DNA from: Elusimicrobium sp. An273
GTDB lineage: Bacteria > Elusimicrobiota > Elusimicrobia > Elusimicrobiales > Elusimicrobiaceae
DNA length: 64,000 nucleotides
Assembly (NCBI RefSeq): GCF_002159705.1
Contig: NZ_NFJD01000001.1
Location: forward strand, 62,001-126,000
Direction of reading: 5' to 3'
In this document: positions 16,793-24,363 of the stretch, piece after piece
Position numbering within the stretch: position 1 is the stretch's first letter
Layout of the letters: each line of letters opens with the position of its first letter
Notes under the pieces: model-generated
Database searches by the model: none
Seen by the model: the letters and a program-made list of their open reading frames with translations, nothing else
What the model was told of the DNA's origin: nothing
Program-made: the position numbers and the translations under genes

Positions 16793-17326
16793 TCAACTGC
16801 ACCAGCCCGAAGCGGTGGAATCCAACCCGTACACTTCGCAGGAGCCGTCCCCGGCTCCGTCGTTGCACAGGAAATTATCCCGATTGGAATTGGTTTCCAA
16901 TTCGCCCAAATACAAGAAGTTCACGCCGGCGTTGTCCCCTTTGCGGCGCACGGCACACACGCCGTTAATAATGGTGGCGGTAGAGCCGGAAACCGAGCCT
17001 TGCGGCAATAGCGTGTATTTGAAATCTTTGGTGTAGAGGGTATTCCCCGTGCAGCGCGTCAGGCGGGCGCCCGTAGAGGCGTCCACACACGGAATGGTAA
17101 CGTCCAAATTTTCAAAGCCAAACAATCCGTTTGCGTAGTTTTCTCTGTCCATATTGTCCAAGGTGCGCAATTTGGACTCTAAAATTTTTTTCATCAACGT
17201 CCGCGCCTCGGCCATGCGGGATTTTTCCACGGTTTTATCATACATCGGCACCGCCATCGTCACTAACAGCGACACAATCATCACCGCCACCAAAATTTCC
17301 ACCAGCGTAAATCCTTTTTTCTGCAT
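16793..17326 (-). CDS. Type IV pilin-like / pseudopilin protein 1
   Basis: The protein starts MQKKGFTLVEILVAVMIVSLL, a class III signal peptide: short basic leader, Gly before the prepilin peptidase cut, Phe+1 and Glu+5 in a hydrophobic helix. The mature part (~170 residues) has a long amphipathic helix and a Cys-rich C-terminal region (GVCAV, NFLCNDGAGDGSCEV, GWCS) that probably forms disulfides. Such proteins are assembled by type IV pilus or type II secretion machinery. AGGAG lies 6 nt before the ATG. It is the third and most diverged of three tandem copies. No pilus motor or secretin genes are nearby. Confidence 0.87.
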   Translation of the reverse strand: MQKKGFTLVEILVAVMIVSLLVTMAVPMYDKTVEKSRMAEARTLMKKILESKLRTLDNMDRENYANGLFGFENLDVTIPCVDASTGARLTRCTGNTLYTKDFKYTLLPQGSVSGSTATIINGVCAVRRKGDNAGVNFLYLGELETNSNRDNFLCNDGAGDGSCEVYGLDSTASGWCS

Positions 17327-17334
17327 ACAAGCTC

Positions 17335-17826
17335 CTATAACGTATCCAAGCCGAAAATATCACACGCCTCCGAGGAAGCATCGGGCTCTTTGCAATAAAG
17401 CTGCTGGTTTTCCCGGTCGAAATAAAACGATACGCCCTTATACGGATCGGTGCGTTTTTCGGCTTTGACATACGCCACGCCGTTTTCATTTACAAGCGCC
17501 GTATACGAAAACCGCGAACATTGCAGCGTGCGGTTGCTGTCCACCAGCGAGCATCCCGTCGGCAAGTTGGAGGAGTCGAACATATCCATCCGCGGGAAAG
17601 AATAATTGGTTTGTCCTTTCTGCGCCACCAGCGCAGCATACGAGCGAAAGCCAAATTCGCCCGCCAGGCGTTCGCTGGAGTCGTAAATGGTTCTCAGCAT
17701 GGCCTGCGCCTCGGAAGCGTGGGCTTTTTCCACCACTTTTCTATACTGCGGCAGCGCCACGCCGGACAAAATTGCCACAATCAATACAACCGTCAATAAT
17801 TCAATCAGCGTAAATCCTTTTTTCAT
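17335..17826 (-). CDS. Type IV pilin-like / pseudopilin protein 2
   Basis: MKKGFTLIELLTVVLIVAILS is a class III prepilin signal with Gly(-1), Phe(+1) and Glu(+5). The QYRKVVEKAHASEAQ helix closely matches the QYRRSVERTRVAEAL segment of the next copy, showing duplication. The C-terminal half has a SYTALVNENGVAYVKAEK strand region and a final CDIFGLD motif shared in variant form with the neighbours. The start at 17826 has GGAGAG upstream and places the signal as in the neighbours. An ATG at 17838 would add MERA. It is transcribed with the flanking pilin-like genes. Confidence 0.85.
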   Translation of the reverse strand: MKKGFTLIELLTVVLIVAILSGVALPQYRKVVEKAHASEAQAMLRTIYDSSERLAGEFGFRSYAALVAQKGQTNYSFPRMDMFDSSNLPTGCSLVDSNRTLQCSRFSYTALVNENGVAYVKAEKRTDPYKGVSFYFDRENQQLYCKEPDASSEACDIFGLDTL

Positions 17827-17837
17827 AGCTCTCTCCA

Positions 17838-18341
17838 TTAGGGAACAACCGGAATCACGGTGAATTCGCAGGCGGCTTTATCCAAATTCAGGCGCTCGCA
17901 CGCATCCGAACCGCTGGTTCCGGGACAGCAGGTAAATTGATCGCCCGCATAATACACAATCGTTCCTTTATAAGTACCTTTTTGCAGCGTGGCCGACACC
18001 CACGGTTCCCCGACTGTACACATTCTGCCCGCACAGGATTGGACTAAATTATACTGGAAATTTTCCGTAAGCAGGGTGGTGTCGCTGGTTCGTTTTCCTT
18101 TCATATCGATGTCCAGCTTGTCAAAAGAAACCGCCGGTTGAACCAGTTGCAATCCCCACTTCCAGCCGCGTTCGGTCATCAGCCGTTCCCGCGCGTCGTA
18201 AATGGCAGGCAGCATCTGCAGCGCTTCCGCCACGCGGGTGCGCTCCACGCTGCGGCGGTACTGGGGCAGCGCAATCGCCGTTAAAATACCCATAATCAGC
18301 ACGACTGCCAATAATTCAATTAAGGTAAACCCTCTTTTCAT
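17838..18341 (-). CDS. Type IV pilin-like / pseudopilin protein 3
   Basis: This is the first gene of the tandem. It starts MKRGFTLIELLAVVLIMGIL, a class III prepilin signal, followed by the IALPQYRRSVERTRVAEAL helix found in Elusimicrobium-type pilin-like proteins and a Cys-containing C-terminal head. An upstream in-frame ATG at 18428 exists, but AGGGAG 5-6 nt before 18341 and the position of the signal peptide fix the start. Mature length is about 160 residues. The substrate or role (pilus subunit, pseudopilin, DNA uptake) cannot be deduced. Confidence 0.87.
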   Translation of the reverse strand: MKRGFTLIELLAVVLIMGILTAIALPQYRRSVERTRVAEALQMLPAIYDARERLMTERGWKWGLQLVQPAVSFDKLDIDMKGKRTSDTTLLTENFQYNLVQSCAGRMCTVGEPWVSATLQKGTYKGTIVYYAGDQFTCCPGTSGSDACERLNLDKAACEFTVIPVVP

Positions 18342-18504
18342 AAAAACTCCCTGTAAAAGTATAGGCTTTTTATCGTTTATTACAATACCCATTATAACTA
18401 AAAAACTCTTTCCGTGCCAAGCCGCCAAACTGCTTTTAAAACCTAAATTTTGTATGATATAAGACGGTTTGGCCGGATGCTCTGCGGCCGGAAGGAGGAT
18501 TAAT

Positions 18505-21076: not shown

Positions 21077-21094
21077 TGGATATTACAATATCCA
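21077..21094. promoter_or_regulatory. Candidate Rex operator 1 (rex promoter)
   Basis: This is a perfect 7-4-7 inverted repeat, TGGATAT-TACA-ATATCCA. It starts exactly at the end of the rex -10 box and covers the expected transcription start. The geometry equals that of the classical Rex box (7-4-7), but the half-site differs from TTGTGAA. Confidence 0.6.
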
Positions 21095-21122
21095 TAATAT
21101 CTATTTGTAAAGTCCTTGTCAA
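21094..21122 (-). promoter_or_regulatory. rex promoter
   Basis: On the minus strand TTGACA (21122-21117) and TATTAT (21099-21094) are separated by 17 bp. The -10 box abuts the inverted repeat at 21077-21094. Confidence 0.65.
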
Positions 21123-21153
21123 GCCTTTCTGCGGTTGTTTTATAGAAGGGTTA

Positions 21154-21182
21154 TTGACATCATTTCGTGCAAAATATAAAAT
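21154..21182 (+). promoter_or_regulatory. adhE promoter
   Basis: TTGACA (21154-21159) and TAAAAT (21177-21182) are separated by 17 bp, close to the sigma70 consensus. The second operator copy begins 2 nt downstream. Confidence 0.7.
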
Positions 21183-21183
21183 A

Positions 21184-21201
21184 TAGATATCAAAATATCC
21201 A
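21184..21201. promoter_or_regulatory. Candidate Rex operator 2 (adhE promoter)
   Basis: TAGATAT-CAAA-ATATCCA is a 7-4-7 inverted repeat with one mismatch between its arms. It matches operator 1 in both half-sites apart from one position and lies at the same place relative to its promoter, over the start site. Confidence 0.6.
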
Positions 21202-21236: not shown

Positions 21237-23876
21237 ATGGCGGAAAAGAAAACTGCGCCGGCTGTTGCCACCCCGGAAGAATTGGCCCACTTGGACCAAA
21301 TTGTTTCGAAGGTCAAAGAAGCCCAGCGCGTGTATGCGACATATACGCAAGAACAAGTAGACAAAATTTTCCGCGCGGCCGCTATCGCCGCTGCGCAAAA
21401 CCGGATTCCCCTGTCCAAACTGGCGGTGGAAGAAACCGGCATGGGGGTAATGGAAGACAAGGTAATTAAAAACCAATTCGCTTCCGAATACATTTACAAC
21501 CAATACAAAGACACCAAAACCTGCGGCGTCCTCTCGGACGACGACGCGTTCGGTTTCCGCCAAGTGGCAGAGCCTATCGGACTAATCGCCGGGATCATCC
21601 CGACCACGAACCCGACTTCTACCGCTATTTTCAAAAGCTTGCTTGCTTTGAAAACCCGCAACGGGATTGTGTTCTCTCCGCATCCGCGCGCCAAAAAATG
21701 CACCATCGCCGCGGCGAAAATCGTGTTGGACGCCGCCGTGGAAGCCGGCGCGCCCGCGGGCATTATCGGCTGGATTGAAAACCCGACTATGCCCCTTTCC
21801 AACGCGCTCATGCACCACAAAGACATCAACCTGATCTTGGCCACCGGCGGCCCCGGCATGGTGAAAGCGGCGTACTCCTCCGGCAAGCCGGCCATCGGCG
21901 TAGGCGCCGGCAACACCCCGGTAGTGATTGACGCCACCGCCAACATCAAAATGGCCGTCAGCTCCGTGATTATGAGCAAAACCTTTGATAACGGGATGAT
22001 CTGCGCCAGCGAACAGTCCGTCATTGTGGAAGACCCGGTGTACGATAAAGTGAAAGAAGAATTTATCGCCCGCGGGTGCCACTTTGTAACCGGAAAAGAC
22101 CGCAAAAAACTGGCCGACACCATCGTCATTAACGGCAAGCTGAACTCCGCCATCGTCGGACAAAGCGCCGAAAAAATTGCGGAAATGGCCGGCATTAAAG
22201 TGCCCGCCGGCACCAAAATTTTGATTGCCGAAGCCAAAGAAGTAAGCGACCAAGAACCCTTCGCCCGCGAAAAACTCTCCCCGGTATTGGGTTTCTACCG
22301 CGCCAAAGATTTTAAATCCGCCGCGCAGCTGGCCAAGGATTTAATCCTCTACGGCGGCGCCGGACATACTTCCGTGCTGTATACGGACGAAGCCAACGAA
22401 GACCATATTGACTACTTCAAAGATATGCCCACCGCCCGCACGCTGATCAATATGCCTTCTTCCCAGGGGGCCATCGGCGACGTGTACAACTTCAAGCTCG
22501 CCCCGTCTTTGACGTTGGGCTGCGGCTCTTGGGGCGGCAACTCCGTCAGCGAAAACATTGGGGTAAAACATCTTATGAACGTGAAATCCGTCGCGGAACG
22601 CCGCGAAAATATGTACTGGTACAAAGTACCTTCCAAAATCTACTTCAAACGCGGCGCCCTGCCGCAGGCCTTGGCGGAACTTTCCGACAAGCACCGCGCC
22701 TACATCATTACCGATAAAACCATGGAACAGCTGGGCCATGTGCGCGCCGTGGCGGATGTGTTGGAAAGCCTCAACATCAAGTTCCGCGTCTTCTCCAACG
22801 TTCTGCCGGATCCGAACATTTCCAACGTGCAGGAAGCCTTAAACATTGCCAATTCCTGGCAGCCGGATATGATTATCGCCTTAGGCGGCGGTTCTGCCAT
22901 TGACGAAGGAAAAATGGTGTGGCTGATGTACGAAAACCCGGATACCAGCTTTGAAGATATCGCCATGCGCTTTATGGATATCCGCAAACGCATTTACGCG
23001 GCGCCGCCCTTGGGCAAAAAAGCCGTGATGGTAGCCATTCCCACCACCTCCGGCACCGGTTCCGAAGTAACGCCGTTTACGATTATTACCGACGAAAAAA
23101 CCGGCACCAAATACGCCATTACCGATTATGCGTTAACGCCGGATATGGCAATTATCGACCCGGAATTCGTGCTGAATATGCCCAAATCGCTGACGGCTTT
23201 CTCCGGGTTGGACGTGCTGACCCACGCCATTGAAGCCTACACCTCCGTATACGCCACCAACTTTACGGACGGCCAAGCGTTGGAAGCCATGCGCCTGGTA
23301 TTTAAATACTTGGAAAAATCCTACACCAACGGCGCCAAAGACATCAACGCCCGCGAAAAAATGCACTACGCGGCCACCATTGCCGGTATGGCTTTTGCCA
23401 ACGCGTTCTTGGGTCTTTCGCACTCCATGGCGCACAAACTGGGCGCCATGTACCACGTGCCGCACGGATTGGCCAACGCCCTCTTGCTCTCGTACGTTAT
23501 TGAGTTCAACGCCACGGACAAACCGACCAAGCAGGGCCTGTTCCCGCAGTACAAATATCCGTTCGTCAAAGGCCGCTACGGCAAAATTGTGGACTTCCTG
23601 CTGCCGCACAACAACTTGGGCGACGATAAGGACGCCAAAGTACAAAAACTCATTGATATGGTGGAAGATTTGAAACACAAGCTCAACATCCCCCGCTCTA
23701 TCAAAGAGTACGGCATTCCGGAAAAAGAGTTCTTGGACAACTTGGATAAGCTTTCCGAACTCGCTTTCGACGACCAGTGCACCGGCGGCAACGCCCGCTA
23801 CCCGCTGATCAGCGAAATCAAGGACTTGTACCTCAAAGCGTACTACGGAGAACCCGTGAAACACAAAGCCAAATAA
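21237..23876 (+). CDS. adhE: Bifunctional acetaldehyde-CoA / alcohol dehydrogenase
   Basis: The 879-residue AdhE has two enzymes in one chain. The N-terminal CoA-acylating aldehyde dehydrogenase (about 1-440) contains GIIPTTNPTSTAIFKSL, GVGAGNTP and the catalytic Cys in DNGMICASEQS. The C-terminal iron alcohol dehydrogenase (about 450-879) contains IALGGGSAIDEGK, IPTTSGTGSEVTPF and metal-ligand histidines in LTHAIEAY and GLSHSMAHKLG...HVPHG. It reduces acetyl-CoA to ethanol with two NADH. AAGGAG precedes the ATG at 21237; the in-frame ATG at 21207 would add ten residues without support. It is divergent from rex, with a matching operator in its promoter. Confidence 0.97.
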   Translation: MAEKKTAPAVATPEELAHLDQIVSKVKEAQRVYATYTQEQVDKIFRAAAIAAAQNRIPLSKLAVEETGMGVMEDKVIKNQFASEYIYNQYKDTKTCGVLSDDDAFGFRQVAEPIGLIAGIIPTTNPTSTAIFKSLLALKTRNGIVFSPHPRAKKCTIAAAKIVLDAAVEAGAPAGIIGWIENPTMPLSNALMHHKDINLILATGGPGMVKAAYSSGKPAIGVGAGNTPVVIDATANIKMAVSSVIMSKTFDNGMICASEQSVIVEDPVYDKVKEEFIARGCHFVTGKDRKKLADTIVINGKLNSAIVGQSAEKIAEMAGIKVPAGTKILIAEAKEVSDQEPFAREKLSPVLGFYRAKDFKSAAQLAKDLILYGGAGHTSVLYTDEANEDHIDYFKDMPTARTLINMPSSQGAIGDVYNFKLAPSLTLGCGSWGGNSVSENIGVKHLMNVKSVAERRENMYWYKVPSKIYFKRGALPQALAELSDKHRAYIITDKTMEQLGHVRAVADVLESLNIKFRVFSNVLPDPNISNVQEALNIANSWQPDMIIALGGGSAIDEGKMVWLMYENPDTSFEDIAMRFMDIRKRIYAAPPLGKKAVMVAIPTTSGTGSEVTPFTIITDEKTGTKYAITDYALTPDMAIIDPEFVLNMPKSLTAFSGLDVLTHAIEAYTSVYATNFTDGQALEAMRLVFKYLEKSYTNGAKDINAREKMHYAATIAGMAFANAFLGLSHSMAHKLGAMYHVPHGLANALLLSYVIEFNATDKPTKQGLFPQYKYPFVKGRYGKIVDFLLPHNNLGDDKDAKVQKLIDMVEDLKHKLNIPRSIKEYGIPEKEFLDNLDKLSELAFDDQCTGGNARYPLISEIKDLYLKAYYGEPVKHKAK

Positions 23877-24021: not shown

Positions 24022-24363
24022 ATGGGATTGGAAGAAATTGAGGAGAAGGATTATTTCTCCATCGGCGACGTAAAACGCATTACCGGGGTGCCGGAGTATT
24101 CCATACGCTACTGGGAGGCCGAATTCGGCCTGATTCGCCCCATCCGCCTGGAAAGCGGCCACCGCCGCTACACCAAAGAAGACGTCTATACCATTCTCAA
24201 AATTAAAGATTTAATCTATAAACACAAGCTCACGCTGGAAGGCGCCAAAAAGCAGCTCTCCAAATATCAATTCCCGGCGGCAGGCCGCGGCGAAAAGCCC
24301 CGCACGGACATCAAACTTCTGACGGAAATTAAAGAAACGCTGGAAGATTTGCTAAAAGAATGA
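24022..24363 (+). CDS. MerR family transcriptional regulator (small)
   Basis: This is a 113-residue DNA-binding protein. YFSIGDVKRITGVPEYSIRYW forms the MerR helix-turn-helix, and the wing region reads SGHRRYTKEDV. A short coiled-coil follows, with ~30 variable residues at the end. It lacks the Cys-containing effector domains of metal sensors. Small MerR proteins of this type often sit near tRNA genes and ihf/pheT in other bacteria, but its targets here are unknown. It lies between adhE and two tRNA-Pro genes and appears to be transcribed as a leaderless message. Confidence 0.85.
   Translation: MGLEEIEEKDYFSIGDVKRITGVPEYSIRYWEAEFGLIRPIRLESGHRRYTKEDVYTILKIKDLIYKHKLTLEGAKKQLSKYQFPAAGRGEKPRTDIKLLTEIKETLEDLLKE

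Follow-up and report, generated by a model that had tools for sequence, protein, structure and literature searches.

Palindromes over the divergent rex and adhE promoters of Elusimicrobium sp. An273 are probable non-canonical Rex operators with counterparts in other phyla

The repressor Rex is a standard example of how redox state controls fermentation, and the operator it recognizes is regarded as almost universal. The canonical Rex operator (ROP) has the sequence TTGTGAA-N4-TTCACAA or TTGTTAA-N4-TTAACAA. In Rex of Thermotoga maritima, Arg48 touches the G of TTG, Lys49 touches the bases at positions 5-6, and the wing residues Arg60 and Gly61 contact the two T before that G from the minor groove (PMC8836258); Arg50, Arg51 and the wing residue Arg62 have equivalent roles in Rex of Streptococcus agalactiae (PMC8376106). 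Tyr98 of Rex is part of the NADH switch (PMC6125430).

In this study, we analyzed a window of 64,000 nucleotides from Elusimicrobium sp. An273 in which rex and adhE are divergent (Table 1). A first-pass annotation had proposed that two inverted repeats over the starts of these genes represent a non-canonical Rex operator. Our analyses support that proposal through the conservation of the palindromes, their tracking with rex and the divergent contact residues of the protein, and we consider it probable, at roughly 0.86, that the palindromes are non-canonical operators for the Rex encoded beside them.

The assignment of the rex product itself is based on several searches. It scored 256.8 bits against the NCBIfam equivalog NF003994 (cut-off 130), has a wHTH N-domain and a Rossmann C-domain by Pfam (PF06971 and PF02629), and carries the GxGxxG nucleotide site as GVGHLG at residues 94-99. 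The best PDB fold matches of its AlphaFold model, in which a C-terminal helix (the putative swap helix) is predicted at residues 198-210, were all Rex proteins, including the DNA-bound structures 3wgi, 7wb3, 3ket and 3ikt, and a PDB sequence search with the product also matched Rex. Among close relatives, those with names are gut Elusimicrobiales, which makes a gut-dwelling member of the Elusimicrobiaceae the most likely source of the window. Elsewhere in the window, a run of three pilin-like genes, whose leader sequences read GFTLIELL/GFTLVEIL, lies on the minus strand at 16793-18428, and a small gene for a MerR-type regulator (24022-24363) is situated close downstream of adhE.

Table 1. Coordinates in the window of rex, adhE and the promoters and predicted operators between them
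Feature	Coordinates	Strand	Remarks
rex, redox-sensing repressor, 212 aa	20419..21057	-	Variant DNA-reading residues K53, K54, L65, R66; Phe105 at the Tyr98 position
rex operator (predicted, Rex-type)	21077..21094	-	TGGATATTGTAATATCCA on the rex strand; spans the expected transcription start; both arms kept in 41/41 genus genomes
rex promoter	21094..21122	-	TTGACA-17-TATTAT; -35 kept in 41/41 genomes
adhE promoter	21154..21182	+	TTGACA-17-TAAAAT; -35 with 5 or 6 of 6 matches in 41/41 genomes
adhE operator (predicted, Rex-type)	21184..21201	+	TAGATATCAAAATATCCA; spans the expected transcription start; kept in 41/41 genus genomes
adhE, bifunctional acetaldehyde-CoA/alcohol dehydrogenase, divergent from rex	21237..23876	+	NCBIfam NF010378, 1367.9 bits (cut-off 951)

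Both repeats and both promoters claimed in the first-pass annotation were found where it had placed them. The repeat nearest rex, TGGATATTACAATATCCA on the forward strand, is a perfect 7-4-7 palindrome (TGGATAT-N4-ATATCCA), and the one nearest adhE (TAGATAT-N4-ATATCCA) has a single arm mismatch (A2 against C17). Each -10 box leads straight into one palindrome: the minus-strand rex promoter has its -35 at 21122-21117 and, after 17 nt, its -10 at 21099-21094, the last base of which is the first base of the rex operator, and the plus-strand adhE promoter has its boxes at 21154-21159 and 21177-21182, also 17 nt apart. An 18-bp 7-4-7 palindrome thus overlaps the promoter of rex and that of a fermentation gene. 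The genome sequence (1.5 Mb, 97.8% complete) contains two exact matches to TRGATAT-N4-ATATCYA, both of them at this locus, and no site with one mismatch. At two mismatches there are 18 matches genome-wide versus 7 for a reversed control; those inspected were mostly intragenic or AT-rich and were rejected as additional targets. A search of the genome for canonical Rex boxes with one mismatch returned four matches versus three for the control, i.e. no enrichment. A different AT-rich palindrome, TAAATATCAATATATTTA, was observed at 1501-1518 of locus L014, 17 bp upstream of an ArsR-type-looking ORF, and is possibly that regulator's own operator.

In comparison with the canonical ROP, the palindromes have the same 18-bp 7-4-7 form, with T1, G3 and A6 in common, and the same kind of position, over promoters of the group comprising rex, adhE and hydrogenase genes. 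The half-site, in contrast, is TRGATAT and not TTGTGAA or TTGTTAA, as the first-pass annotation had also recognized: position 2 is A or G instead of T, positions 4-5 are AT instead of TG or TT, and position 7 is T instead of A. G3 and A6 are conserved contacts that are kept in the window operator.

The protein differs from well-studied Rex in a comparable manner. It shares with Rex of T. maritima (7WB3), S. agalactiae (3KET) and Thermus aquaticus (3IKT) the two-domain fold, the GxGxxG site and the redox-switch residues Arg16 and Asp188 (T. aquaticus numbering), present as R23 and D197. An ungapped alignment to PDB Rex, with contacts taken from PMC8836258 and PMC8376106, placed Lys53, Lys54, Leu65 and Arg66 at the base-contacting positions, three of which are changed. 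The recognition-helix Arg (Arg48/Arg50) is replaced by Lys53 and the wing Arg60-Gly61 by Leu65-Arg66, so that position 49 alone survives of the canonical reading set (in T. maritima numbering, Arg48, Lys/Arg49 and Arg/Lys-Gly at 60-61); in addition, Ser52 is replaced by Gln57. The divergence that had been noted just after the recognition helix lies in the wing, and it is joined by the Arg to Lys change within the helix. A changed position 2 beside a changed wing matches expectation, and suggests, short of proof, that the wing is what alters the choice of base there. At the position of Tyr98 the protein has Phe105. Phe stands there in every Rex of the genus examined, and most of the other Rex proteins examined have Tyr, so this genus could respond differently to NADH.

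We gathered Rex proteins across the phylum and from other phyla and scanned the sequence upstream of each rex, which revealed that the GATA core of the window operator is widespread. The pattern TNGATA-N6-TATCNA was found upstream of 32/60 rex genes whose product has a GKP[KR] wing, 8/20 with a GRP[KR] wing and 40/40 of this genus (wing AP[ST]K), compared to an average of at most 0.07 in shuffled upstream regions and 0 for the genus set. These counts include one site that we discounted, a TCGATA site upstream of rex in genome G067 (L062/L126) that lies inside a stem of 11 bp with seven T directly after it and is likely a terminator; its effect on the class count is one or two. The canonical pattern TTGTNA-N6-TNACAA was in no upstream region of these three wing classes, in a sample that holds only three canonical Rex. 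No GATA-core site was found upstream of rex with GTPQ or GxPG wings, and those classes are consequently uninformative here. In a maximum-likelihood tree, all sampled Rex proteins that have a GATA-core site group in one clade (support 97/92) that leaves Thermus and Bacillus Rex outside.

Members of that clade with G[KR]P[KR]xG[YF] wings, from Elusimicrobiota, deltaproteobacterial genomes, Clostridia, Omnitrophota, Ignavibacteriota and Bacteroidota, have TNGATA-N6-TATCNA over the rex operon in common with the window. They differ from it in that position 2 is mostly C, A or T and in that their rex is in an operon with nuoE/hydrogenase genes or adhE, whereas the window rex is divergent from adhE. 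Co-varying palindromes with this 18-bp geometry occur over rex in other lineages as TAGATAW-N4-WTATCYA with GKPK wings and as TTGATAA-N4-TTATCAA with GRPK wings, and at the planctomycete locus L264 a site with exactly the half-site of the window (TGGATATAAATATATCCA) lies between rex and a gene for an iron-containing alcohol dehydrogenase. The neighbors of the genus in the tree are Rex proteins from a sister genus (L087-L090) that has an adhE-rex operon and the wing APGKTRLGY; the 18-bp box is absent there, and 19-bp TRGATAY...ATACYA dyads are found near -165 and across the start of adhE. Going by gene names that come from sequence reading rather than family searches, rex in clade relatives directly precedes adhE or the gene for a nuoE-like hydrogenase subunit, or is divergent from hydrogenase genes, and further GATA-core sites lie at a pyruvate:ferredoxin oxidoreductase-like operon and beside rubrerythrin-like genes. 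Genes of these types are already known as Rex targets (PMC5886521, PMC6391272).

These comparisons modify two suggestions of the first-pass annotation. The proposed lineage-specific specificity holds for the fine form, as TRGATAT and the wing AP[ST]KxRxGF are confined to the genus, but not for the GATA core, which is common to a multi-phylum Rex clade. The hydrogenase sites that were anticipated are not found by motif in this genome, but are present in other members of the clade. On balance, we favor the existence of a large multi-phylum specificity class of Rex in which an altered wing (G[KR]P[KR] or AP[ST]KxR in place of R-G) reads TNGATA-N6-TATCNA, with the wing tuning position 2. Any such wing-to-operator rule is loose: C or A predominates at position 2 with GKP[KR] wings and T with GRP[KR] wings, the genus has A or G there, and GKPK-wing Rex alone is associated with all four bases. 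A TRGATA or TCGATA Rex operator was not found in the literature searched, which excluded the main survey of Rex motifs (Ravcheev et al. 2012). If this class is real, existing Rex regulon predictions based on TTGTKAA would miss its targets, and the GATA-core motif could guide the search for targets in gut Elusimicrobia and in other anaerobes for which the classical motif gives no hits. The replacement of base-reading residues together with a matching shift of the operator, in dozens of species, would also provide a natural series for studying how the Rex wing sets sequence choice.

Within the genus, we searched 66 genomes, 42 of which have this type of Rex. In one of the 42 (G012) rex is represented by a 3' fragment alone, located at the end of a contig, leaving 41 with the 5' end of the gene and 24 without this rex. 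Loss of the repeats in relatives was the outcome that the first-pass annotation had named as counting against its proposal, and the opposite was observed: both sites are kept in 41/41 relatives with this rex and absent in 24/24 without it. The exact motif occurs in each of the 41 and in 0/25 of the others (the 24 and G012). Both sites have at least 10 of the 12 specified bases in every one of the 41, and T1, G3, A4, T5, T13, A14, T15, C16 and A18 are invariant at both. Most genomes without rex still have adhE, and the palindrome was absent from the adhE promoters of the 15 such genomes examined. In two of these 15 (L072 and L074) a lone half-site sits just after the adhE -10 region, which fits decay after the loss of rex. 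As rex lies next to adhE and the genomes are relatives of one another, the tracking of sites with rex could reflect tracking of the locus. In one genome placed in the same genus (G035; L066/L091), the Rex encoded just downstream of adhE is of a different type that looks more canonical (RKDLSYLGNSGKCRVGY).

An alternative is that the palindromes are bound by a different regulator, which would control rex and adhE together, with Rex reading something else. Such a regulator is conceivable in that the half-site does not resemble the classical Rex box and several families bind 18-bp palindromes over promoters. However, it would have to have been gained and lost exactly with rex, as the sites vanish precisely where rex is missing though adhE stays, and to recur next to rex across phyla, since the only neighbor that GATA-core palindromes in other phyla have in common is rex, beside hydrogenase genes or adhE; the genome also has no excess of canonical boxes that Rex could use instead. 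We therefore regard this explanation as improbable.

Less probable still is that the repeats act as RNA hairpins in each mRNA leader. The rex copy does form a hairpin of 18 nt (-6.2 kcal/mol, z -1.41), but the adhE copy does not fold as such a hairpin in its leader, and each repeat starts at or before the expected +1. A hairpin is disfavored because positions 2 and 17 vary without keeping pairing, the combination of A at position 2 with C at position 17 breaking the pair in 22/41 rex sites and 13/41 adhE sites. Finally, that AT-rich promoter DNA is palindromic by chance is refuted by conservation at both promoters in all 41 species beside a spacer between the two -35 boxes of about 46% identity (same-length pairs), and by the 40/40 upstream regions of the genus with a GATA-core site versus 0 in shuffles. 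Conservation is a stronger argument than the shuffle statistics of the window (two matches in the window at up to two mismatches versus 0.27 expected, at least two being reached in 4/100 window shuffles).

With the palindromes as operators of the adjacent-encoded Rex, we infer binding, repression and the response to NADH from sequence as follows. A dimer of NAD+-bound Rex would occupy each 18-bp site, with one wHTH domain per TRGATAT half-site. Because the site begins at the -10 box or immediately downstream of it and is expected to include +1, bound Rex would block RNA polymerase. A rise in NADH would cause Rex to close and leave the DNA, and the resulting induction of adhE would lead to ethanol formation and the reoxidation of NADH. 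Through the site at its own promoter, rex would limit its own amount by autorepression.

The distance between the two operators, start to start, is 105-109 bp (sd 0.87) in the window and its 41 relatives, about ten helical turns, and the internal distances between them shift in opposite directions so as to compensate (r = -0.86). This constant spacing would be consistent with cooperation between Rex dimers bound to the same face of the helix, which we offer as a suggestion only because few independent events underlie the pattern. As a separate observation on site arrangement, pairs of GATA-core sites, 14 bp apart and overlapping by a few bases, are present upstream of rex at four loci of Clostridia, Ignavibacteriota and Bacteroidota (L210, L225, L240 and L236).
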